Assembly: GCA_001873285.1 (NCBI GenBank)
Contig: MNYV01000153.1
Coordinates: 1 to 10,187, forward strand
Direction of reading: 5' to 3'
DNA length: 10,187 nt
Source: Nitrospirae bacterium CG2_30_53_67
GTDB lineage: Bacteria; CG2-30-53-67
The notes under the pieces were generated by a model. The model was not told the DNA's origin and searched no databases. It saw only the letters and a program-made list of their open reading frames with translations. A program made the translations under genes and the position numbers. Positions 2,105 to 10,187 of the stretch are shown piece after piece (the stretch's first letter is position 1; the number at the start of each line of letters is the position of its first letter).

Positions 2105-2620
2105 ATGAAGCTTGAGACCTTCTTATCACAAAAAAAGTCCGCCATCCTTGAAAAATGGCTTAACCTGCTGCTTGATTCATATCCTTCTGAAAGTTCAGCG
2201 TTATTCAAGAAAAACAAAGATCCATTTTCCAATCCCATGGGGCACACGTTCTCTCAAGAGATGGCGTCCATCTATGACGCACTCTTGAAAGGGACTGATT
2301 TTAGTCAGGATCCGTCTTCCGCCGAGATGTTGATCAAGATCCGGGCGGTTCAGGATTTTTCAGCATCTGAGGCCGTCTCCTTTGTCTTCTCACTCAAAAA
2401 GGTGATCCGGGAGGAACTGGGAGAGATGATCGGCGAGGATGGGGTGCAGGCGGAGTTGCAGGCCTTGGACTCCCGCATAGACGATCTTGCCCTGGTCTGT
2501 TTCGACCACTATATGAAATCCAGGGAGATGATCTATGAACTCAAGGCAAATGAAATAAAGGAAAGGGCATACACGCTCCTGAAAAGAGCGAACATGATGT
2601 GTGAGACCACCGGCTCGTAA
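2105..2620 (+). CDS. RsbRD N-terminal-domain protein, first gene of the dsr operon
   Basis: A soluble, mostly helical protein of 171 aa resembling the RsbRD_N domain (N-terminal domain of RsbR-type stressosome co-antagonists), recognised from the opening FLSQKKSAILEKWLNLLLDSYP, the central F...H.F..E...IYDALL and RAVQDFSASEAVSFVF segments, and the C-terminal FDHYMKSREMIYELKANEIKER. The STAS domain that follows in true RsbR proteins is absent. GGAGGAG (2087-2093) lies 11 bases before the ATG. The gene is 52 bases upstream of dsrM and behind the only strong promoters, so it is probably co-transcribed with dsrMKJOP. From memory, similar genes precede dsrM in other sulfate reducers. By analogy it could sense or bind a partner, but no function is established; a regulatory or assembly role is inference. 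Confidence 0.72.
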   Translation: MKLETFLSQKKSAILEKWLNLLLDSYPSESSALFKKNKDPFSNPMGHTFSQEMASIYDALLKGTDFSQDPSSAEMLIKIRAVQDFSASEAVSFVFSLKKVIREELGEMIGEDGVQAELQALDSRIDDLALVCFDHYMKSREMIYELKANEIKERAYTLLKRANMMCETTGS

Positions 2621-2630
2621 AGAGCCCGGT
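2609..2630 (+). promoter_or_regulatory. Hairpin between the RsbRD gene and dsrM
   Basis: ACCGGCTC (2609-2616) pairs with GAGCCCGGT (2622-2630) around a GTAAA loop, with one bulged C. The stem spans the RsbRD stop codon. No T-run follows, so it is more likely an RNA-processing or stability element, or a weak attenuator, than a full terminator. Confidence 0.35.
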
Positions 2631-2672
2631 CCATTCCAATCATTTGTTTAACATAAAGCGAGGTAAAAATTC

Positions 2673-3668
2673 ATGGGAGTTCTATCCGCCCTCATCTCAG
2701 TGATGGTACTCGTTTTATTGGCCTACGTGGGAGTGAACCGGGGAGGCTTGAATTACCTCTTCGGGGTGACCATCCCTTATGCGGCCGTTCTCATATTCTT
2801 TCTCGGGTTCATCTACCGCATGGTCCAGTGGGCGCGCTCCCCGGTTCCTTTCCGGATCCCAACCACGTGCGGCCAGCAGAAAACCCTCCCCTGGATCAAG
2901 CAAGACAAACTCGAAAGCCCGTCCGACACCATCAGCGTGCTCGCAAGGATGTTCCTTGAGGTCTTTTTCTTCCGTTCCCTTTTCAGAAACACTCGGGCTG
3001 AACTAAGAGAAGGTAAAAGGCTTGTCTATGGCTCTTCCAAATGGCTCTGGATGGCCGGGATGGCCTTTCATTGGTGTTTCCTCATCATTTTCATCAGGCA
3101 CTTGAGATTCTTCACCATGCCGATCCCCGCTCCCCTGCACATGATCGAGGGGATGGACGGCCTCCTTCAGATCGGCGTGCCGAGGCTCTATATGACCGAC
3201 CTCATCTTTCTGGCGGCGGTCGCCTTCCTTTTCTTAAGAAGGGTGGTCATCCCGCAGGTGCGTTACATTTCCCTTCCCGCGGACTACTTCCCCCTCTTCC
3301 TGATTCTGGCTATCGGAACGAGCGGGGTCCTGATGAGATACTTCACCAAGGTGGATATTGCGGCCGTCAAGGATCTCACCGTGGGTCTTGCAACCCTGCA
3401 TCCCCATATCCCGGGGGTGCAGATCGGAAGCATCTTCTACATTCATCTCTTTCTTGTGAGCGCGCTCTTCATCTATTTTCCGTTCAGTAAACTCATGCAT
3501 CTGGGGGGCGTTTTCTTGAGTCCCACGAGAAATCTGGCGAACAACAACCGCATGGTCAGGCACGTCAACCCCTGGAATTATCCGGTCAAGGTCCATACCT
3601 ACGAAGAGTATGAAGATGAATTCAGGGCAAAGATGATTAAAGCCCACATTCCCGTAGAGAAGGAATAA
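2673..3668 (+). CDS. dsrM: DsrM, cytochrome b subunit of DsrMKJOP
   Basis: An inner-membrane diheme cytochrome b (NarI-like) of 331 aa that exchanges electrons with menaquinone and passes them to or from DsrK. Hydrophobic spans lie near 3-20, 31-50, 124-146, 174-190, 204-222 and 251-271. Candidate heme-ligand histidines are H133 and H143 (FHWCFLIIFIRHLRFF) and H258 and H276 (IHLFLVSALFIYFPFSKLMH). The N-terminal region with two spans and the VPFRIPTTCGQQKTLPWIK linker matches the long, sulfate-reducer-type DsrM; sulfur-oxidiser DsrM proteins are, as I recall, shorter. A CGAGG (2659-2663) lies 9 bases before the ATG. Only 3 bases separate its stop from dsrK, which supports translational coupling within the complex. 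Confidence 0.95.
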   Translation: MGVLSALISVMVLVLLAYVGVNRGGLNYLFGVTIPYAAVLIFFLGFIYRMVQWARSPVPFRIPTTCGQQKTLPWIKQDKLESPSDTISVLARMFLEVFFFRSLFRNTRAELREGKRLVYGSSKWLWMAGMAFHWCFLIIFIRHLRFFTMPIPAPLHMIEGMDGLLQIGVPRLYMTDLIFLAAVAFLFLRRVVIPQVRYISLPADYFPLFLILAIGTSGVLMRYFTKVDIAAVKDLTVGLATLHPHIPGVQIGSIFYIHLFLVSALFIYFPFSKLMHLGGVFLSPTRNLANNNRMVRHVNPWNYPVKVHTYEEYEDEFRAKMIKAHIPVEKE

Positions 3669-3671
3669 GCG

Positions 3672-5291
3672 ATGGCAGATAAACTTCCGACACCGGCAGA
3701 AATGAAGATAGACCACACGCCTCCAAAGACCGGGTGGATGGACACGCCCTTTGAATTCAGAAAGGGGACTTGGTGTTACAGCGCGAAGCCCAAGAGTATT
3801 GAGTATCTCGGGTTCCCCAATCCCCGGGAATGGTCCCCGCCGGATGAGGACTGGAAACTTCCGGAGAACTGGGAGGAGATCATCCACAAAGGGTTCAAGG
3901 AACGGCTCGGCAAGTTCCGTTCCTTCAAACTCTTCATGGATGTCTGTGTCCGGTGCGGCGCCTGCGCCGACAAGTGCCATTTTTTCCTTGGAAGCGGTGA
4001 TCCCAAGAATATGCCGGTCCTCAGGGCCGAACTGCTCCGGTCGGTGTACCGCAAAGATTTCACCGCGGCCGGAAAGCTGCTCGGGAAAGCGGCCGGGGCG
4101 AGAAAGCTCACCGTGCAGGTGCTGAAAGAGTGGTTCTACTATTTCTACCAGTGCTCAGAGTGCCGCCGCTGTTCGGTCTTCTGCCCCTACGGCATTGATA
4201 CGGCCGAGATTACCATGATGGCAAGGGAACTCATGCATCTCGTGGGTGTGAACATCAACTGGATCCTCGATCCTGCGGCCAGCTGTTTCAGGACGGGGAA
4301 CCATCTCGGTCTGGAGCCTCACTCCTTCAAAGACAGCATCGAATCCCTGCTGGACGACGTGGAGGAGATTACAGGCATCCGGGTAGCCCCGTCCTTCAAC
4401 CGCAAGGGGGCCGAGATCCTCTTCATCACCCCTTCCGCGGACGTCTTCGCCGATCCGGGAATCTATACCTTTATGGGATATCTCCTCCTCTTCCATCATA
4501 TCGGGCTCGACTACACCATCAGCACCTACGCCTCCGAAGGGGGGAACTTCGGCCTGTTCACCTCAAACGAGATGATGAAACGGCTCAACGCCAAGATGTA
4601 CGCGGAAGCCAAGCGGCTGGGTGTGAAGTGGATCCTGGGCGGGGAGTGCGGTCATATGTGGCGGGTCGTCCATCAGTACATGGATACCATGAACGGGCCC
4701 GCGGATTTTCTGGAGGAGCCGGTCTCCCCGATCACCGGGACGAAATTCGAGAATGCGAAATCCACCAAGATGGTGCACATCACCGAGTTCACCGCGGATC
4801 TGATCAAAAACGGCAAACTTAAACTCGATCCGAGCCGCAACGACCACCGGAAGGTGACGTTCCACGATTCCTGCAATCCTGCAAGGGCCATGGGTATCTT
4901 TGAAGAGCCCCGCTACGTCCTGAAGAGCGTGTGCAATCATTTCCATGAGATGCCGGAGAATACCATCCGGGAGCAGACCTTCTGCTGCGGGGCCGGTTCC
5001 GGGCTGAATACCGAGGAGTTCATGGAGATGAGGCTCCGGGGCGGGCTCCCCAGGGCGAATGCCGTGAAGTACGTGGCGGAAAAACACGGCGTGAACCTGC
5101 TTACCTGTATCTGTGCGATCGACCGGGCCGTGCTTCCTCCCCTGATGAGATACTGGGTTCCCGGAGTCGAGGTCAGCGGCGTGCACGAACTGGTGGGGAA
5201 TGCCCTGATCATGGATGGCGAAAAGAAGAGGACGACCGGTTTGCGTGAAGAGCCTCTTGAAGGCGTAGAGGAGGACGAAGCCGATGTATGA
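3672..5291 (+). CDS. dsrK: DsrK, HdrD-like iron-sulfur catalytic subunit
   Basis: A cytoplasm-facing subunit of 539 aa related to heterodisulfide reductase HdrD, thought to oxidise or reduce the C-terminal cysteines of DsrC. Two classic [4Fe-4S] motifs are present: C92-x2-C95-x2-C98-x3-C102 (CVRCGACADKC) and C161-x2-C164-x2-C167-x3-C171 (CSECRRCSVFC). The C-terminal half carries the CCG-type catalytic cluster region: C401 (HDSCNPAR), C438-C439-G (CCGAGSG), then C479 and C481 (LLTCICAID). C326 in GGECGHMW is another conserved-looking cysteine. The last pair is C-x-C rather than the C-x-x-C described for HdrD, and may be the DsrK form. The gene overlaps dsrJ by 8 bases. Length and motifs are normal for DsrK, and no frame break is seen. 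Confidence 0.96.
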   Translation: MADKLPTPAEMKIDHTPPKTGWMDTPFEFRKGTWCYSAKPKSIEYLGFPNPREWSPPDEDWKLPENWEEIIHKGFKERLGKFRSFKLFMDVCVRCGACADKCHFFLGSGDPKNMPVLRAELLRSVYRKDFTAAGKLLGKAAGARKLTVQVLKEWFYYFYQCSECRRCSVFCPYGIDTAEITMMARELMHLVGVNINWILDPAASCFRTGNHLGLEPHSFKDSIESLLDDVEEITGIRVAPSFNRKGAEILFITPSADVFADPGIYTFMGYLLLFHHIGLDYTISTYASEGGNFGLFTSNEMMKRLNAKMYAEAKRLGVKWILGGECGHMWRVVHQYMDTMNGPADFLEEPVSPITGTKFENAKSTKMVHITEFTADLIKNGKLKLDPSRNDHRKVTFHDSCNPARAMGIFEEPRYVLKSVCNHFHEMPENTIREQTFCCGAGSGLNTEEFMEMRLRGGLPRANAVKYVAEKHGVNLLTCICAIDRAVLPPLMRYWVPGVEVSGVHELVGNALIMDGEKKRTTGLREEPLEGVEEDEADV

Positions 5292-5700
5292 TGCCGGGAA
5301 AATTATCGCCGGGTTGCTGATCTTTATCGGTGTGATGACGTTTCCTCTCTGGTACAACATGGGGAAGGCCTCGCCGGCGCCGGAGCCGGAACTCTCGCAA
5401 AAGGCCAAGCAGGAAAAGGAGTGCGTGGAACCCAAGTCATTCATGAAGACCAAGCATATGCAGTTGCTGAACCAATGGCGTGATTCGGCCGTGCGGGAAG
5501 ACATGCGGGTCTATGTAGGATCCAACGGGAAGTCTCACGATATCAGCCTCCAGAACACCTGTCTTAACTGTCATTCCAACAAAGACAAATTCTGCGACAA
5601 GTGCCACGATTTTGTGGGGGTTACACAACTCTACTGCTGGGATTGCCATCTTGAGCCGAAGGAGAAGGAGTTATGGGCTGCAAAAGACGTGAATTTTTAA
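5284..5700 (+). CDS. dsrJ: DsrJ, periplasmic triheme cytochrome c
   Basis: A membrane-anchored periplasmic cytochrome c of 138 aa. Residues 6-23 form an uncleaved-looking signal anchor. Three CxxCH heme sites are clear: C93-C96-H97 (CLNCH), C104-C107-H108 (CDKCH) and C118-C121-H122 (CWDCH). C47 (KECVEPKSFM) corresponds in position to the cysteine that gives one DsrJ heme its unusual His/Cys ligation in Allochromatium; H58 and the WRDSAVRE segment are other family marks. Its role in the complex is still debated; electron exchange or sulfur chemistry on the periplasmic side is proposed for the family. GAGGAGG (5268-5274) lies 9 bases before the ATG. It overlaps dsrK by 8 bases and dsrO by 28 bases. 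Confidence 0.96.
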   Translation: MYDAGKIIAGLLIFIGVMTFPLWYNMGKASPAPEPELSQKAKQEKECVEPKSFMKTKHMQLLNQWRDSAVREDMRVYVGSNGKSHDISLQNTCLNCHSNKDKFCDKCHDFVGVTQLYCWDCHLEPKEKELWAAKDVNF

Positions 5701-6464
5701 AGATCGCCGGACTCTCTACCCTGGCGGGCCTTGCGGGCAAATCGGCCTATGAACTGCTTGCTCCGGGTCAGCTTGAGGCCTCAGAGTTCATGTCGGGCGG
5801 GCAGGCCCTGAAGGCCGAACGCTGGGCCATGGTGATTAATATGAAAAAGTGTTCCGAACAGGAAGAGTGCCGGGACTGCGTTGACGTCTGCCGGCATGTC
5901 CACAACATCCCGGATTTCAAGAACCCCAAAGATGAGATCAAGTGGATCTGGAAGGCCCCGTTCCAGCATGCCTTTCCCGAGCAGGAGAGTGAGTTTGTCG
6001 AGGAAAAACTCAAGGAACTCCCTTTCATCGTTCTCTGCAACCACTGTAAGAATCCGCCGTGCGTCCGGGTCTGTCCCACACAGGCGACCTTCAAGAGGAA
6101 AAAGGACGGGGTGGTCATGATGGATTACCACCGCTGTATCGGGTGCCGCTTCTGCATGGCGGCCTGCCCCTATGGTTCAAGAAGCTTCAACTGGAGAGAT
6201 CCCCGGCCTTTTGTCAACAAGGATGAAGGAAATCCGGAATACCCCACGAGGACCAAGGGCGTTGTGGAGAAATGCACCTTCTGCGACGAAAGGCTTGCCG
6301 TAGGCAAGATCCCGGCCTGTGTAGAGGCCTGTAAGGAGAAGGCGCTGGTCTTTGGTGATCTGGAAGATCCGAATTCAGAGGTCCGGGAACTTCTCAGGGC
6401 CAACTACAGCATCCGGCGAAAACCGGAGCTGGGCACGGAACCTTCCGTTTTCTATATTGTATGA
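5673..6464 (+). CDS. dsrO: DsrO, Tat-exported ferredoxin subunit
   Basis: A periplasmic iron-sulfur protein of 263 aa that carries electrons between DsrJ and the membrane protein DsrP. A Tat signal lies at the start: KRREFLK (residues 4-10) followed by a hydrophobic stretch to about 22. Sixteen cysteines in four groups predict four [4Fe-4S] clusters: C60/C66/C69/C73, C122/C125/C130/C134, C155/C158/C161/C165 and C201/C204/C216/C220. The order and spacing resemble HybA/NrfC/TtrB-type ferredoxins. The start at 5673 is supported by AAGGAG upstream and by the Tat motif; it lies inside dsrJ in another frame, so the last nine codons of dsrJ also encode the start of the Tat signal. Confidence 0.95.
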   Translation: MGCKRREFLKIAGLSTLAGLAGKSAYELLAPGQLEASEFMSGGQALKAERWAMVINMKKCSEQEECRDCVDVCRHVHNIPDFKNPKDEIKWIWKAPFQHAFPEQESEFVEEKLKELPFIVLCNHCKNPPCVRVCPTQATFKRKKDGVVMMDYHRCIGCRFCMAACPYGSRSFNWRDPRPFVNKDEGNPEYPTRTKGVVEKCTFCDERLAVGKIPACVEACKEKALVFGDLEDPNSEVRELLRANYSIRRKPELGTEPSVFYIV

Positions 6465-6471
6465 GGTGACT

Positions 6472-7629
6472 ATGCTGGAAAAGGCATTGACCGGAAGTCG
6501 AAGATACTGGGCATGGATATTTTTCCTGCTTGCGATCATCGGGGTAGGGTTTATTTTCTACCTGCGGCAGCTAAGTTACGGTTTGGGGATCACCGGTATG
6601 AGCCGGGACGTGACTTGGGGGTTCTACATCGCCCAGTTTACCTATCTGGTGGGGGTGGCGGCCTCGGCGGTGATGCTGGTCATTCCTTATTATCTCCATA
6701 ATTACAAGAAATTCGGGAGGATCACGGTTCTCGGAGAGTTCCTGGCCGTCTCCGCCGTGATCATGTGCATCCTGTTCATCTTCGTCGACCTCGGCCAGCC
6801 CTTCCGGGTCATGAATGTGGTCCTGCATCCCACCCCAAACTCGGTCATGTTCTGGGACATGATCGTCCTCTTGGGGTATTTCATGCTGAATATCGTGATC
6901 GCATGGGCTACCCTGGGCGCTGAGCGCAAGTCCGCGCCTCCGCCTTCATGGATCAAACCGCTGATCTACCTTTCGATTCCATGGGCGGTCAGTATCCATA
7001 CGGTGACCGCGTTCCTGTATGCCGGTCTTCCCGGAAGACATATGTGGCTCTCCGCCATCATGGCGGCCCGGTTCCTGGCCTCGGCATTTGCATCAGGCCC
7101 CGCTCTTCTGATTATCCTTTGCCTGATCGTGAGAAGTCAGACCCGTTTCGACCCGGGCAAGGAGGCCATCCAGACCCTGGCCAAGATCGTGACTTACGCC
7201 ATGATCACCAATGTATTTTTTCTGCTCCTTGAATTCTTCACCGCCTTTTACAGCGGGATACCGGGACATATGAATTCCCTCAAATATCTCTTTTTCGGGC
7301 TGGAAGGGCATGGGGCGCTTGTTCCCTTCATGTGGACATTTGTGGTTTTGGCCGTTATAGGAATCGGTATGCTGGTCCCGCCGCCTCTGCGCTCAAACGA
7401 GAATCTTCTGGCCGTTGCCGCGATATTGATCATCGTTTCGACATGGATCGACAAAGGGTTGGGGCTGGTGGTGGGCGGTTTCATCCCTAACCCGTTTGAA
7501 GAAGTGGTGGAATATGCGCCGACCCTGCCCGAACTCTCGATTGCCCTCGGTGTCTGGGCCATCGGGTTTCTGATATTGACCATTCTGTTTAAAGTGGCGA
7601 CGGCCGTTAAGGAAGAGGCCGCTCAGTGA
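6472..7629 (+). CDS. dsrP: DsrP, NrfD-family membrane quinone-interacting subunit
   Basis: An integral membrane protein of 385 aa in the NrfD/PsrC family, proposed to exchange electrons between menaquinone and DsrO. Ten hydrophobic spans can be drawn: about 13-31, 50-75, 86-105, 128-149, 164-184, 196-221, 236-260, 281-303, 311-333 and 353-377. Family marks include GMSRDVTWGFYIAQFTYLVG, VDLGQPFR (105-112) and the IDKGLGLVVGGFIPNPF region (326-342). The open frame extends upstream into dsrO, but the ATG at 6472 fits best: GAGGTG is 4-5 bases before it, it lies 7 bases after the dsrO stop, and the protein then starts just before the first span. It closes the MKJOP set. Confidence 0.95.
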   Translation: MLEKALTGSRRYWAWIFFLLAIIGVGFIFYLRQLSYGLGITGMSRDVTWGFYIAQFTYLVGVAASAVMLVIPYYLHNYKKFGRITVLGEFLAVSAVIMCILFIFVDLGQPFRVMNVVLHPTPNSVMFWDMIVLLGYFMLNIVIAWATLGAERKSAPPPSWIKPLIYLSIPWAVSIHTVTAFLYAGLPGRHMWLSAIMAARFLASAFASGPALLIILCLIVRSQTRFDPGKEAIQTLAKIVTYAMITNVFFLLLEFFTAFYSGIPGHMNSLKYLFFGLEGHGALVPFMWTFVVLAVIGIGMLVPPPLRSNENLLAVAAILIIVSTWIDKGLGLVVGGFIPNPFEEVVEYAPTLPELSIALGVWAIGFLILTILFKVATAVKEEAAQ

Positions 7630-7636
7630 AGGGGTG

Positions 7637-7699
7637 ATCCGGGCCGCGAAGGCCGGATGGTAAAATATTAAGGTGTTTTCGGGAGGTTTGTAACCTTAA
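7637..7699 (+). promoter_or_regulatory. Hairpin and inverted repeat between dsrP and dsrC
   Basis: ATCCGGGCC (7637-7645) pairs with GGCCGGAT (7651-7658) around a GCGAA loop with one bulged G. A second inverted repeat, TTAAGGT (7668-7674) with ACCTTAA (7693-7699), follows. Neither is followed by a T-run. dsrC transcripts are usually far more abundant than those of the membrane complex, so a processing stem, partial attenuator or dsrC-specific operator is plausible. No convincing -35/-10 pair is visible in this 98-base spacer. Confidence 0.4.
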
Positions 7700-7727
7700 A
7701 TTAATAACAACATTGGAGGAAGACGTA

Positions 7728-8063
7728 ATGAGCAGCATTGAAGTCGGCGGCAAGAAAATTGAATTGGATGAGGATGGCTTTCTTAAAAATATGGATGACT
7801 GGAGCAAGGACGTGGCCTTGGCGCTTGCAAAGACCGAAAGCGTCGATATGACGGAAGCGCATTGGGAGGTGGTGAACTTTCTCAGGGATTATTACCAGGA
7901 ATACAAGATCGCCCCGATGATCCGGATCCTGACCAAGGCCATCGGGAAGGCCCTCGGCAAGGAGAAGGGGAATACCAAGTATCTCTATGAACTTTATCCC
8001 GCCGGGCCGGCCAAACAGGCTTGTAAGATTTCCGGTTTGCCCAAGCCCACGGGCTGCGTATAA
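7728..8063 (+). CDS. dsrC: DsrC, sulfur-carrier protein with both redox cysteines
   Basis: A small cytoplasmic protein of 111 aa that carries sulfur on its flexible C-terminal arm. It is the co-substrate of dissimilatory sulfite reductase, forming a trisulfide that DsrMKJOP is thought to reduce. The arm GPAKQACKISGLPKPTGCV holds both conserved cysteines, C99 and the penultimate C110, ten residues apart, which marks true DsrC rather than TusE or one-cysteine relatives. The GKEKGNTKYLYELYP segment (77-91) corresponds to the insertion that separates DsrC from TusE. The start at 7728 is chosen because TGGAGGAAG lies at the right distance and gives the usual MSSIEV N-terminus; an in-frame ATG at 7713 lacks a ribosome site. 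It is separated from dsrP by 98 bases and from dsrE by 185. Confidence 0.96.
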   Translation: MSSIEVGGKKIELDEDGFLKNMDDWSKDVALALAKTESVDMTEAHWEVVNFLRDYYQEYKIAPMIRILTKAIGKALGKEKGNTKYLYELYPAGPAKQACKISGLPKPTGCV

Positions 8064-8066
8064 GCG

Positions 8067-8101
8067 GTCCATTTAAAGGGATGGACAGGGGAGCTTCCCC
8101 T
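8067..8101 (+). terminator. Two adjacent hairpins just after dsrC
   Basis: GTCCAT (8067-8072) pairs with ATGGAC (8081-8086), and AGGGGA (8087-8092) pairs with TCCCCT (8096-8101). Both stems are perfect and directly adjacent, starting 4 bases after the dsrC stop. No U-rich tail follows, so this is a weak terminator or, more likely, a 3' stabilising structure for the dsrC message with read-through into dsrEFH. Confidence 0.4.
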
Positions 8102-8103
8102 TG

Positions 8104-8218
8104 AAGCGCTGACTCCGGTTGTAGAATCCCTGCGCTTATGGGGAGAAAGGTCTGGAAGAAAAAAACGATGCGGGTCGTACATCCGGACTGCCTTTCAAGA
8201 GGCGGATAACCCGTGCAT
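8104..8218 (+). promoter_or_regulatory. Structured leader upstream of dsrE
   Basis: AAGCGC (8104-8109) pairs with GCGCTT (8132-8137). A nested structure follows: CGGGT/ACCCG (8171-8175 with 8209-8213), ATCC/GGAT (8181-8184 with 8204-8207) and GCCT/AGGC (8190-8193 with 8200-8203) with a 5-base bulge. Together with the two hairpins after dsrC, most of the 185-base spacer can fold. No known riboswitch class was recognised. TTGAAG (8101-8106) and TAGAAT (8122-8127) give only a poor promoter match with a 15-base spacer. Confidence 0.35.
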
Positions 8219-8248
8219 GAAGATTCACATTTATGTGATGGAGGTACA

Positions 8249-8605
8249 ATGAAATTCGGAATACTGGTTCAGGAAGGCCCCTATAATCACGAGGCGTCGG
8301 ACAGCGCCTACAATTTCATCCAGGCATCACTGGCCAGGGGACATGAAATCACCGGCGTTTTTTTCTACAACGACGGGGTCATCAATGCAACGAAGCTGAT
8401 GGATATCCCTGCCGATGACCGTCACATCAGCAAAAGATGGTCGGAGTTAGGGTCCAAGGGTGTCCAATTGATCGTTTGTGTCGCGGCGGCCAAGCGGCGC
8501 GGCATCAATCAGAATGTTCTCATCGAAAACGCGAGGATCGACGGGCTCGGGCAGTTGAGCGAACTCTGTATCGAGTCCGACCGGCTGGTGACCTTCGGCG
8601 ATTAA
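8249..8605 (+). CDS. dsrE: DsrE, TusD-like sulfurtransferase subunit
   Basis: A cytoplasmic DsrE/TusD protein of 118 aa, the sulfur-binding subunit of the DsrE2F2H2 hexamer, which in sulfur oxidisers hands persulfide sulfur to DsrC. C77 in LIVCVAAAKRRGI sits where the active cysteine of TusD and DsrE (Cys78) lies. The KFGILVQEGPYNHEASDSAYNFIQASLARGHEI start and the GLGQLSEL...SDRLVTFGD end fit the family. The start at 8249 follows GATGGAGG with correct spacing; the open frame extends to 8213 but that extension has no ribosome site and no family match. It begins a tight dsrE-F-H group (21 and 30 bases between genes). Confidence 0.94.
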   Translation: MKFGILVQEGPYNHEASDSAYNFIQASLARGHEITGVFFYNDGVINATKLMDIPADDRHISKRWSELGSKGVQLIVCVAAAKRRGINQNVLIENARIDGLGQLSELCIESDRLVTFGD

Positions 8606-8626
8606 ACGAAAGGAGTTGATGAGCCA

Positions 8627-8998
8627 ATGGAAGAGAGTAAAACGAGAAAGATTATGTTTGTGAACCGGAAGGCGCCTCACGGTTCCATTTACGCCTACGA
8701 GGGGTTGGAAGTGATCCTCATCTTCGGGGCGTACGATCAGGAAATCAGCGCCGTCTTCCTGGACGATGCCGTTCTCTCCCTGAAAAAAGGGCAGGATACC
8801 AGTGAGCTTGGGACCAAGGGGTTTGCCGCGACGTTCAAGGTAATGGAATCCTATGGGGTGGAGAACCGATATGTGGACAGGGAGTCGTTGGAACAGAGGG
8901 GCCTCACCAAGGACGATCTGCTGGTTGACGTCGAGGTCATGGACGGGGCGGCGCTCCGCAAGGTTATGGGAGAGCAGGACGTGCTTTTGCCTTTTTAA
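8627..8998 (+). CDS. dsrF: DsrF, TusC-like sulfurtransferase subunit
   Basis: The TusC-like subunit of DsrEFH, 123 aa and cytoplasmic. It keeps the DsrE-fold pattern: KIMFVNRKAPHGSIYAYEGLEVILIFGAYDQEISAVFLDDAVL, then a GTKGFAATFKVMESYGVENRYVDRESLEQRGL segment typical of TusC/DsrF. It contains no cysteine, as expected for a structural partner rather than a sulfur carrier. AGGAG (8611-8615) lies 11 bases before the ATG; an out-of-frame ATG at 8619 leads nowhere family-like. It sits between dsrE and dsrH, so the heterohexamer genes are in canonical order. Confidence 0.93.
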   Translation: MEESKTRKIMFVNRKAPHGSIYAYEGLEVILIFGAYDQEISAVFLDDAVLSLKKGQDTSELGTKGFAATFKVMESYGVENRYVDRESLEQRGLTKDDLLVDVEVMDGAALRKVMGEQDVLLPF

Positions 8999-9028
8999 TG
9001 GTTCGAGTATTCGCAAGGAGGAGAAACA

Positions 9029-9322
9029 TTGCTTCATATCGTGAACAAATCACCTTTTAAATTCCGGAACCTGGACAGTTGTATCCGGATCGCCAAGGAT
9101 GATGATCCCATCATGCTGATCGAGGACGGTGTCTACGCCGCGCTGACCGGGACCGCCCTTGAGAAAATGATGAAGGGAGCCTTGAAGACCCATCCCGTGT
9201 TCGCCATCCAGGCGGATCTCAAGGCTCGGGGTGTGGACAGGATCATCGAGGGGATACAGGTTTGCGACTATTCCTGTTTCGTAACGCTCGTCGAAAAGCA
9301 CGTACCCTATTCCTGGCTGTAA
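9029..9322 (+). CDS. dsrH: DsrH, TusB-like sulfurtransferase subunit (TTG start)
   Basis: The smallest DsrEFH subunit, 97 aa. LHIVNKSP at the start, the LDSCIRIA segment with C18 (near the conserved Cys20 of Allochromatium DsrH) and DDPIMLIEDGVYAAL (25-39) identify it. DsrH contacts DsrC in the studied sulfur oxidiser. The likely start is TTG at 9029, since AAGGAGG (9015-9021) is ideally placed and the family N-terminus MLHIVNKSP is recovered; the in-frame GTG at 9041 is too far from it. The next gene starts 9 bases after its stop. Confidence 0.92.
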   Translation: MLHIVNKSPFKFRNLDSCIRIAKDDDPIMLIEDGVYAALTGTALEKMMKGALKTHPVFAIQADLKARGVDRIIEGIQVCDYSCFVTLVEKHVPYSWL

Positions 9323-9331
9323 TGAAAATTG

Positions 9332-9994
9332 ATGGGTGATCCCAAAGAGGCTGTAAAGGAATTCTTAAGAGATAAAAAATACCAGGAGATCCTGAACCTG
9401 GCGGGTGAAAATCGAAAAATGGTCAGGCTCCTTCGGTCCATCCTATACGATGAGGAGCCGATCATCAGGTGGCGGGCGGTGACCCTGTTAGGCAGGCTCG
9501 CCGTGGAAAAACCCGGCTGGATCAAAAACGAGGTCAGCCGGCTGCTCTGGACGCTGAACGACGAATCAGGCTCGATAGGAAGGGCCGCTCCGGAGACTAT
9601 CGGGGAGATCGCAAGGAACAACATCCGCCTTGCAGAAGATGCCGTCAAGGTGGTCATACAATATCTCAAGGATCCGGAGACCTGCCGGTCTCCGAACCGG
9701 AATATAGACATCCTGACCGGGGTGCTCTGGGCCATAGGGAGAGTGGGGAACAGGCGCCCATCTCTGGTCACGAAAGTCATCCCGGTGATTGAATCTTTTC
9801 TCGTAGATCCTGAGCCCTCGGTCAGAGGCCATGCCGCCTGGTGCCTGGGTCAGATCGGCGTGAAAAGCGCCAAGGAGGGGCTTGAGCGGCTGATCCATGA
9901 TGAAGCAAGGTTCCTGCTGTATGAAGATGACGAATTGCAGGAGCAAGCGGTCGGCATGATTTCCGGAAGGGCGCTGCGCCTGATTGGGAATTAA
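9332..9994 (+). CDS. HEAT-repeat protein, last gene of the dsr cluster
   Basis: An all-helical, soluble protein of 220 aa with HEAT/PBS-lyase-like repeats. Paired helices can be seen at about 30-57 (LLRSILYDEEPIIRWRAVTLLGRLA), 66-95 (VSRLLWTLNDESGSIGRAAPETIGEIA), 100-140 (VIQYLKDPE...ILTGVLWAIGRVG) and 146-178 (VIPVIESFLVDPEPSVRGHAAWCLGQIG). The D-x-x-x-x-R-x-x-A pattern of HEAT units recurs. Such proteins are scaffolds or partners for other proteins; no catalytic motif is visible. ATG at 9332 is preceded directly by an in-frame TTG at 9329, and no strong ribosome site exists, so coupling to dsrH (stop at 9320-9322) is likely. The position suggests an accessory role for DsrEFH or DsrC, but that is inference. 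A repeat begins directly after its stop codon. Confidence 0.85.
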   Translation: MGDPKEAVKEFLRDKKYQEILNLAGENRKMVRLLRSILYDEEPIIRWRAVTLLGRLAVEKPGWIKNEVSRLLWTLNDESGSIGRAAPETIGEIARNNIRLAEDAVKVVIQYLKDPETCRSPNRNIDILTGVLWAIGRVGNRRPSLVTKVIPVIESFLVDPEPSVRGHAAWCLGQIGVKSAKEGLERLIHDEARFLLYEDDELQEQAVGMISGRALRLIGN

Positions 9995-10187
9995 GGTTCA
10001 TCTCCAAAAGAGTGGGTGAAAACATCAGGGGTCAAGGGGTCAAGGATTCCAGGGGTCAAGTGAAGTGCTTTTCAAGACTTGAGGGTCCGAGGGGCCAAGG
10101 ATTCAAGGGGTCGAGTGAAGTGCTAAAAACATCAGGGTTCAAGGGTTACTGTGTTTTTCTCTGGAGATTTTGCTTGCATTTAAGTAT
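9995..10187. repeat. Dispersed GGGGTCAA-rich repeat, copy 2 (runs off the window)
   Basis: This stretch begins immediately after the HEAT stop and matches 723-845 plus 970-992 in the same orientation, without the 124-base insert of copy 1. It contains tandem octamers AGGGGTCA (10027-10034, 10035-10042, 10051-10058) and AGGATTCC (10043-10050), and a second octamer block near 10081-10117. The GTGTTTTTCTCTGG at 10151-10164 joins directly to the segment that in copy 1 lies beyond the insert. It continues past the window end. No gene or terminator is seen in it. Confidence 0.75.

Follow-up and report, generated by a model that had tools for sequence, protein, structure and literature searches.

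Type I dsrEFH within a reductive-type dsr operon of Nitrospirae bacterium CG2_30_53_67 and its probable place in two-way sulfur respiration

The dsr gene run and its continuation

The stretch of DNA analyzed here (the window) is the complete 10,187-base contig MNYV01000153.1 (C153) of Nitrospirae bacterium CG2_30_53_67, whose nearest named relatives belong to the candidate phylum CG2-30-53-67 and whose 2.36-Mb genome (G000) is 95% complete and is distributed over 183 contigs. Positions 2105-9994 form a single same-strand run in which the genes dsrT-M-K-J-O-P-C-E-F-H are followed by a gene for a HEAT-repeat protein, all on the forward (+) strand; the subject of this report is the joining, in that run, of a reductive-type dsrMKJOP set to dsrC and to dsrEFH, the genes of a sulfur-transfer complex. 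An initial annotation, made from the sequence of the window alone, had proposed the order dsrM-K-J-O-P-C with a complete dsrEFH, and a profile search of the window's proteins agrees, placing each of these genes in frame on the + strand with a score at least 1.3 times its own curated cut-off. They are dsrM of the reductive type (2673..3668; NF038037, 551 bits), dsrK of the reductive type (3672..5291; NF045796, 756 bits), dsrJ (5284..5700; NF038038, 181 bits), dsrO (5673..6464; NF045797, 315 bits), dsrP (about 6472..7629, with the start picked by homology; NF045798, 499 bits), the long form of dsrC (7728..8063; TIGR03342, 165 bits), dsrE (8249..8605; TIGR03012, 121 bits), dsrF (8627..8998; TIGR03010, 125 bits) and dsrH (9029..9322; TIGR03011, 90 bits). 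Missed by the earlier gene list was a dsrT-type gene directly upstream of dsrM (2105..2620, +), whose product has the RsbRD N-terminal domain (RsbRD_N, Pfam PF14361, E 4e-20); most of the 80 named dsrK loci compared have a homologous open reading frame (ORF) ahead of dsrM or dsrK.

The run does not end with the window. The last 299 bases of the window (9889..10187, a terminus to which no strand applies), about 100 of which belong to the HEAT gene, recur without change as the opening 299 bases of contig C147 (locus L132), an exact suffix/prefix overlap. Beyond it, C147 has dsrA1 and dsrB1, then a gene for an 83-residue winged-helix protein at the place of dsrD, and after that dsrL-2, a rubrerythrin-like gene, nfnA and nfnB. 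The statement that dsrAB, dsrD and dsrL are lacking thus holds for the window, where they are missing because contig C153 ends there, and fails for the genome, in which C147 starts with dsrA and a further contig, C37, has a second set. An unbroken, single-contig version of the combined gene order is present in all five of the other genomes of the family (G001-G005), which with G000 make up the six genomes referred to below, and nfnAB follows dsrL-2 in 6/6 of them. The NfnAB product interconverts NADPH with NADH and ferredoxin; our literature search found no paper linking DsrL with NfnAB, the papers found treating one or the other. What is new here is that dsrEFH is contiguous with the reductive rather than the oxidative dsrAB in six genomes, that nfnAB adjoins dsrL-2, that the DsrC of this block is the long form and that sister family f2 has two DsrA copies per genome that are both oxidative.

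One family member departs from this order: G003 is missing dsrJOP between dsrK and dsrC, and the sequence there has no gap. At this junction (L260, G003:C19, about 5965-6073) dsrK passes to dsrC with no run of N, and the dsrT, M and K of G003 are much more diverged from those of its sister G005 than are dsrC, E, F and H; an exchange or deletion, or else an assembly error, may account for the junction. Downstream of nfnB, G003 and G005 also have a second DsrF-like gene on the opposite strand (L143, about 1252; L147:17242-17607).

Identity and maintenance of DsrEFH

The window's DsrEFH is type I, in that three adjacent subunits exceed the curated cut-offs for DsrE, DsrF and DsrH. The cysteines DsrE Cys77 and DsrH Cys18, which had been described as intact, are so, and both align onto the cysteines of Allochromatium vinosum DsrE and DsrH (2hy5); DsrF has no Cys at all. 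Each subunit scores higher against A. vinosum DsrEFH than against its TusBCD counterpart (DsrE, 126 bits to 2hy5_A vs 79 to TusD; DsrF, 113 to 2hy5_B vs 57 to TusC; DsrH, 76 to 2hy5_C vs 40 to TusB), and a concatenated tree with few references groups the complex with A. vinosum DsrEFH, apart from Escherichia coli TusBCD, with support of 88/95. DsrE over cut-off is single-copy in G000, which has six TusA homologues over cut-off; a profile search found no TusA on the window contig, all six lying on others. The DsrE cysteine is conserved in 6/6 family genomes, and the ratios of nonsynonymous to synonymous substitution rates (dN/dS) for dsrE, F and H are 0.01-0.10 in three genome pairs, from which we conclude that DsrEFH is maintained. 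Left out of the dN/dS analysis as non-orthologous were dsrA2/dsrB2 in the genome pair G002 and G004 and dsrB2/dsrL2 in the pair G003 and G005, G004 being without a second copy and the G005 locus sequence being partial.

Two side observations concern sulfur-carrier genes elsewhere in the family. ORFs of about 371 and 387 residues (G004:C10:53071-54087 and G002:C214:16116-17129) look like fusions of a siroheme-reductase-like part with a TusA domain, and locus L141 (G002:C146) has TusA, DsrE-like and lipoate-binding-like ORFs beside HdrB/GlcD-like ORFs, an assemblage that, with names taken from sequence reading only, resembles an sHdr-type system.

DsrMK, DsrC and the seam between reductive and oxidative parts

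DsrM is 52-70% identical to that of named reducers vs 35% to the oxidative-cluster DsrM of the sister family (f2), and DsrK is 72-79% identical to reducers vs 44% to f2; the tree likewise places DsrK among reducers and apart from f2. With all five subunits above equivalog cut-offs and DsrK grouping with the reducers, the DsrMKJOP complex belongs to the reductive type. DsrK over cut-off occurs once in G000, and DsrC is also present there only once. The initial annotation had grouped dsrC with the reductive part, an assignment that the comparisons do not sustain: DsrC is the long form with the GKxxGNTKYLY loop, its closest match in the PDB is A. vinosum DsrC (166 bits vs 96 for Desulfovibrio vulgaris), and it is 74-77% identical to the DsrC of oxidative clusters in G006, G007 and G261. 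It ends ACKISGLPKPTGCV and keeps both C-terminal cysteines (Cys99 and Cys110 of 111 residues). The short form was found in all Desulfobacterota, Acidobacteriota and Zixibacteria rows compared. The long form also occurs in Nitrospirota with reductive DsrAB, and is therefore not proof of an oxidative role; since it is shared with oxidizers and with these Nitrospirota, the seam between reductive and oxidative parts lies before dsrC and not at dsrE. At three other loci with dsrMK and dsrABDL (L255, L256 and L257, in G216, G018 and G355, respectively), the DsrC by dsrEFH lacks the second conserved cysteine (GPAKQLAKI.GLPKPTGCV).

Two sulfite reductases and the gene in the dsrD position

A second dsrAB, followed by another dsrL, lies on contig C37 of G000. 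In a 47-row DsrA tree, the dsrA1 product (C147, beside the window) falls within reductive DsrA, with the proteins of Acidobacteria and Zixibacteria closest to it; the dsrA2 product (C37) joins the phage-borne rDsrA of SUP05 and the DsrA of sister family f2 with support of 100/99. The labelled oxidative references in this tree are the two phage copies only, so that assignment of the C37 DsrAB to the oxidative type is based on these two references together with the published typing of CG2_30_53_67 (PMC7596348, PMC10591310). Oxidative-type dsrAB is present in five of the six family genomes, G000 included, and in G001 both dsrAB sets reside on one 37.9-kb contig. A binning artefact is an unlikely source of the two sets, given that single contig and the C153/C147 overlap. 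A dsrL follows the second dsrAB in G000, G001 and G003; in G002 and G005 the sequence there is too short to judge. Both DsrL proteins have the DsrL domain layout and the YRR motif that marks the NADP(H)-using DsrL-2 (PMC7596348), and they fall in separate groups, the second with that of G261, a genome with an oxidative-type cluster. Two DsrA copies per genome were found in sister family f2, both of the oxidative type. We also observed a gene for the mercury-methylation corrinoid protein HgcA just upstream of the oxidative dsrA2B2L2 in G001 (L137:15383-16489, -).

The 83-residue gene after dsrB1 is named dsrD in the literature on CG2_30_53_67 (PMC7596348). The Pfam profile for DsrD (PF08679) matched nothing in the nine genomes searched with it (0/9), the dsrD-position protein itself included; as a positive control, the same profile matches in 25/50 named genomes. 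A profile-profile comparison of the protein with DsrD gave 70% probability over nearly its full length. Its predicted structure is a winged helix (predicted local distance difference test score, pLDDT, 84), for which Foldseek returned generic winged helices only, a non-specific result. Members of its protein family also follow dsrB in Acidobacteria, Zixibacteria and bacterium DX4.bin27. The gene is probably a divergent dsrD, and reliance on the Pfam DsrD profile, which misses it in this and several other lineages, would misclassify them.

Sulfate activation and rarity of the arrangement

On contig C120 of G000 lie sat, qmoC, two HdrA-like genes where qmoB and qmoA would stand, aprA and aprB. 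Of these, sat, aprB, aprA and qmoC exceed their cut-offs, and qmoA and qmoB were assigned from HdrA-like matches and gene order. The sulfate-reduction module (sat, aprAB, qmoABC) is complete on this basis, and sulfate activation and reduction are therefore encoded.

The gene order of the window is not routine among sulfate reducers. Canonical DsrE over cut-off occurs in four of 50 named genomes chosen from among the closest DsrK relatives, all four from the window's own family, and as far as contigs reach, none of the other 76 named loci has dsrEFH near dsrMK. Among 386 genomes sampled widely across Bacteria, DsrE exceeds its cut-off in 18, eight of which are from the window's class. Three genomes of family f13 also hold dsrABDL-C-MK-EFH in one run.

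Neighboring genes and repeats

The HEAT-repeat gene that closes the run (9329..9994, +) belongs to the DVU0298 family (NF045662, 148 bits). It follows dsrH in 6/6 family genomes and also in G070, and some Acidobacteria and Nitrospirota have weaker homologues ahead of dsrC; it is possible that its product is an unrecognized dsr-associated protein. Intergenic repeats of the AGGGGTCAAG type occur in the window at 750-1020 and 10026-10187 and on several contigs of G000; repeats of this type probably caused the assembly break at the end of the window.

Relation to known systems

The gene combination itself is not new. The 2020 paper on DsrL reported dsrABD-L-2, rdsrAB-L-2 and dsrTMKJOPCEFH in CG2_30_53_67 and suggested one set per direction (PMC7596348); a 2023 review (PMC10591310) and a 2024 ISME Journal paper (PMC11406059) agree with this gene set. 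As in that description, we find dsrTMKJOPCEFH, a reductive dsrABD-L-2 and a separate oxidative rdsrAB-L-2. The 2020 paper places dsrTMKJOPCEFH apart from dsrABDL-2, whereas in the family studied here they form one contiguous block that is followed by nfnAB. Genomes with both DsrAB types are said in the review always to encode DsrEFH with the oxidative DsrAB (PMC10591310), whereas here DsrEFH adjoins the reductive one.

Among the systems known from other organisms, that of A. vinosum is like the window in its DsrEFH subunits, cysteine positions and long DsrC; what separates the two is that the window's dsrEFH is accompanied by dsrT and reductive MKJOP in an operon of the reductive type, and that the genome has sat-aprBA-qmoABC. 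A DsrEFH of type II accompanies reductive DsrAB in cable bacteria and sulfate reducers (PMC13293266) and is likewise a sulfur transferase; the window's DsrEFH probably differs from it, matching the type I profiles and A. vinosum DsrEFH and having no tusA on its contig. As far as the available part of the report on "Candidatus Acidulodesulfobacterales" goes, reductive dsrAB, dsrD, dsrL and dsrEFH are in one operon and a two-way metabolism is proposed, as here, but a second, oxidative dsrAB is not described (PMC6776010). The f13 genomes, with the order A-B-D-L-C-M-K-E-F-H, may, at a guess, belong to that group; their DsrC lacks the second cysteine, unlike the DsrC of the window.

A shared hub for two directions and its alternatives

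We think it probable that two DsrABL modules, each specific to one direction, draw on a single hub of DsrC, DsrEFH and DsrMKJOP, so that the organism could carry out sulfur respiration either way. In the reductive mode, Sat, AprAB and QmoABC would make sulfite, which the reductive DsrAB would load onto DsrC as a trisulfide for reduction to sulfide by DsrMKJOP. In the oxidative mode, the same DsrC would receive sulfane sulfur from DsrEFH, with TusA or a rhodanese as the source; the DsrC-bound sulfur would then be oxidized to sulfite, with NADP+ as acceptor, by the second DsrAB, which is of the oxidative type and has a DsrL-2 of its own. The single DsrC, DsrEFH and DsrMKJOP would work in both modes; which way sulfur flows, what donates it and how the modes are switched we infer from sequence. 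The initial annotation had suggested a reversible or disproportionating pathway. The reversible option is the better supported, because G000 has, in addition to the reductive dsrAB that adjoins the window, a second, oxidative-type dsrAB-dsrL on C37; disproportionation found no specific support. In sulfide-amended Bohai Sea sediment, rdsrAB transcripts of the candidate phylum CG2-30-53-67 are reported to have risen (PMC12345210), evidence that oxidation does take place in the phylum, if not necessarily in the window's family. Several points weigh against the shared hub: these transcripts may belong to members of the phylum outside the family; a metagenome-assembled genome that is incomplete and fragmented to the degree given above could have failed to capture a second DsrC or DsrMK; G004, at 89% complete, shows no oxidative-type dsrAB; and DsrEFH adjoins the reductive dsrAB, a placement that a role purely in oxidation does not require.

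That placement lends itself to other explanations. DsrEFH might act reductively, taking zero-valent sulfur (elemental sulfur, polysulfide or the sulfane of thiosulfate) from TusA and loading it onto DsrC, with DsrMKJOP reducing the resulting persulfide to sulfide in a side branch of sulfur respiration that bypasses DsrAB. It speaks for this that dsrC-E-F-H is flanked in each of the six genomes by reductive dsrTMKJOP on one side and reductive dsrAB on the other (G003 without dsrJOP), away from the oxidative dsrAB, as do purifying selection on DsrEFH equal to that on the reductive neighbors and the six TusA homologues of G000; against it, G000 also has an oxidative DsrAB that would use DsrEFH, a biochemical precedent was not found in the titles and abstracts of the papers retrieved, and on balance we hold the idea to be rather unlikely. 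Alternatively, the reductive-type DsrAB may run backwards, as proposed for Desulfurivibrio and cable bacteria, with DsrEFH as its sulfur donor and the second DsrAB dispensable. DsrEFH, DsrC and reductive dsrAB do form one contiguous same-strand block, and sulfide oxidation with a reductive gene set has been reported for D. alkaliphilus and cable bacteria, but an oxidative-type dsrAB is retained in five of six genomes, dsrA2 has a dN/dS of 0.09-0.10 in the two pairs having both copies, and the dsrD-position gene adjoins the reductive copy, all of which make a reversed enzyme improbable here.

Two further readings fare worse. The cluster could be an inherited relic of a transition from reduction to oxidation, in keeping with a phylum that has been called transitionary (PMC11406059), with DsrEFH having no present role; the low dN/dS of dsrE, F and H and the DsrE cysteine kept in all six genomes contradict this, and we regard it as very unlikely. 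DsrEFH and TusBCD are homologous and go by common profile names, so that DsrEFH-DsrC might be a housekeeping TusBCD-TusE relay for tRNA thiolation. This reading is hardly credible and was rejected on the subunit scores and the concatenated tree; moreover, DsrH Cys18 is present, the contig has no TusA, and the two cysteines of DsrC set it off from the TusE-like protein of G339.

Implications

One speculative extension of the reductive reading of DsrEFH, unlikely as it stands, is that DsrEFH, fixed in the reductive operon, feeds zero-valent sulfur to DsrC, that DsrMKJOP reduces it there and that NfnAB provides or draws off the NADPH of DsrL-2; if DsrEFH did feed DsrMKJOP, a marker of sulfur oxidation would be acting in a sulfur-respiring route. 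The conserved link between dsrL-2 and nfnAB provides a testable idea for how NADP(H) may be coupled to the Dsr pathway. More broadly, DsrEFH, DsrD and DsrL are used to read from genomes in which direction sulfur metabolism runs, and since dsrEFH lies in this family within the reductive operon while the oxidative dsrAB is elsewhere, neither the presence of dsrEFH nor its neighborhood tells that direction.

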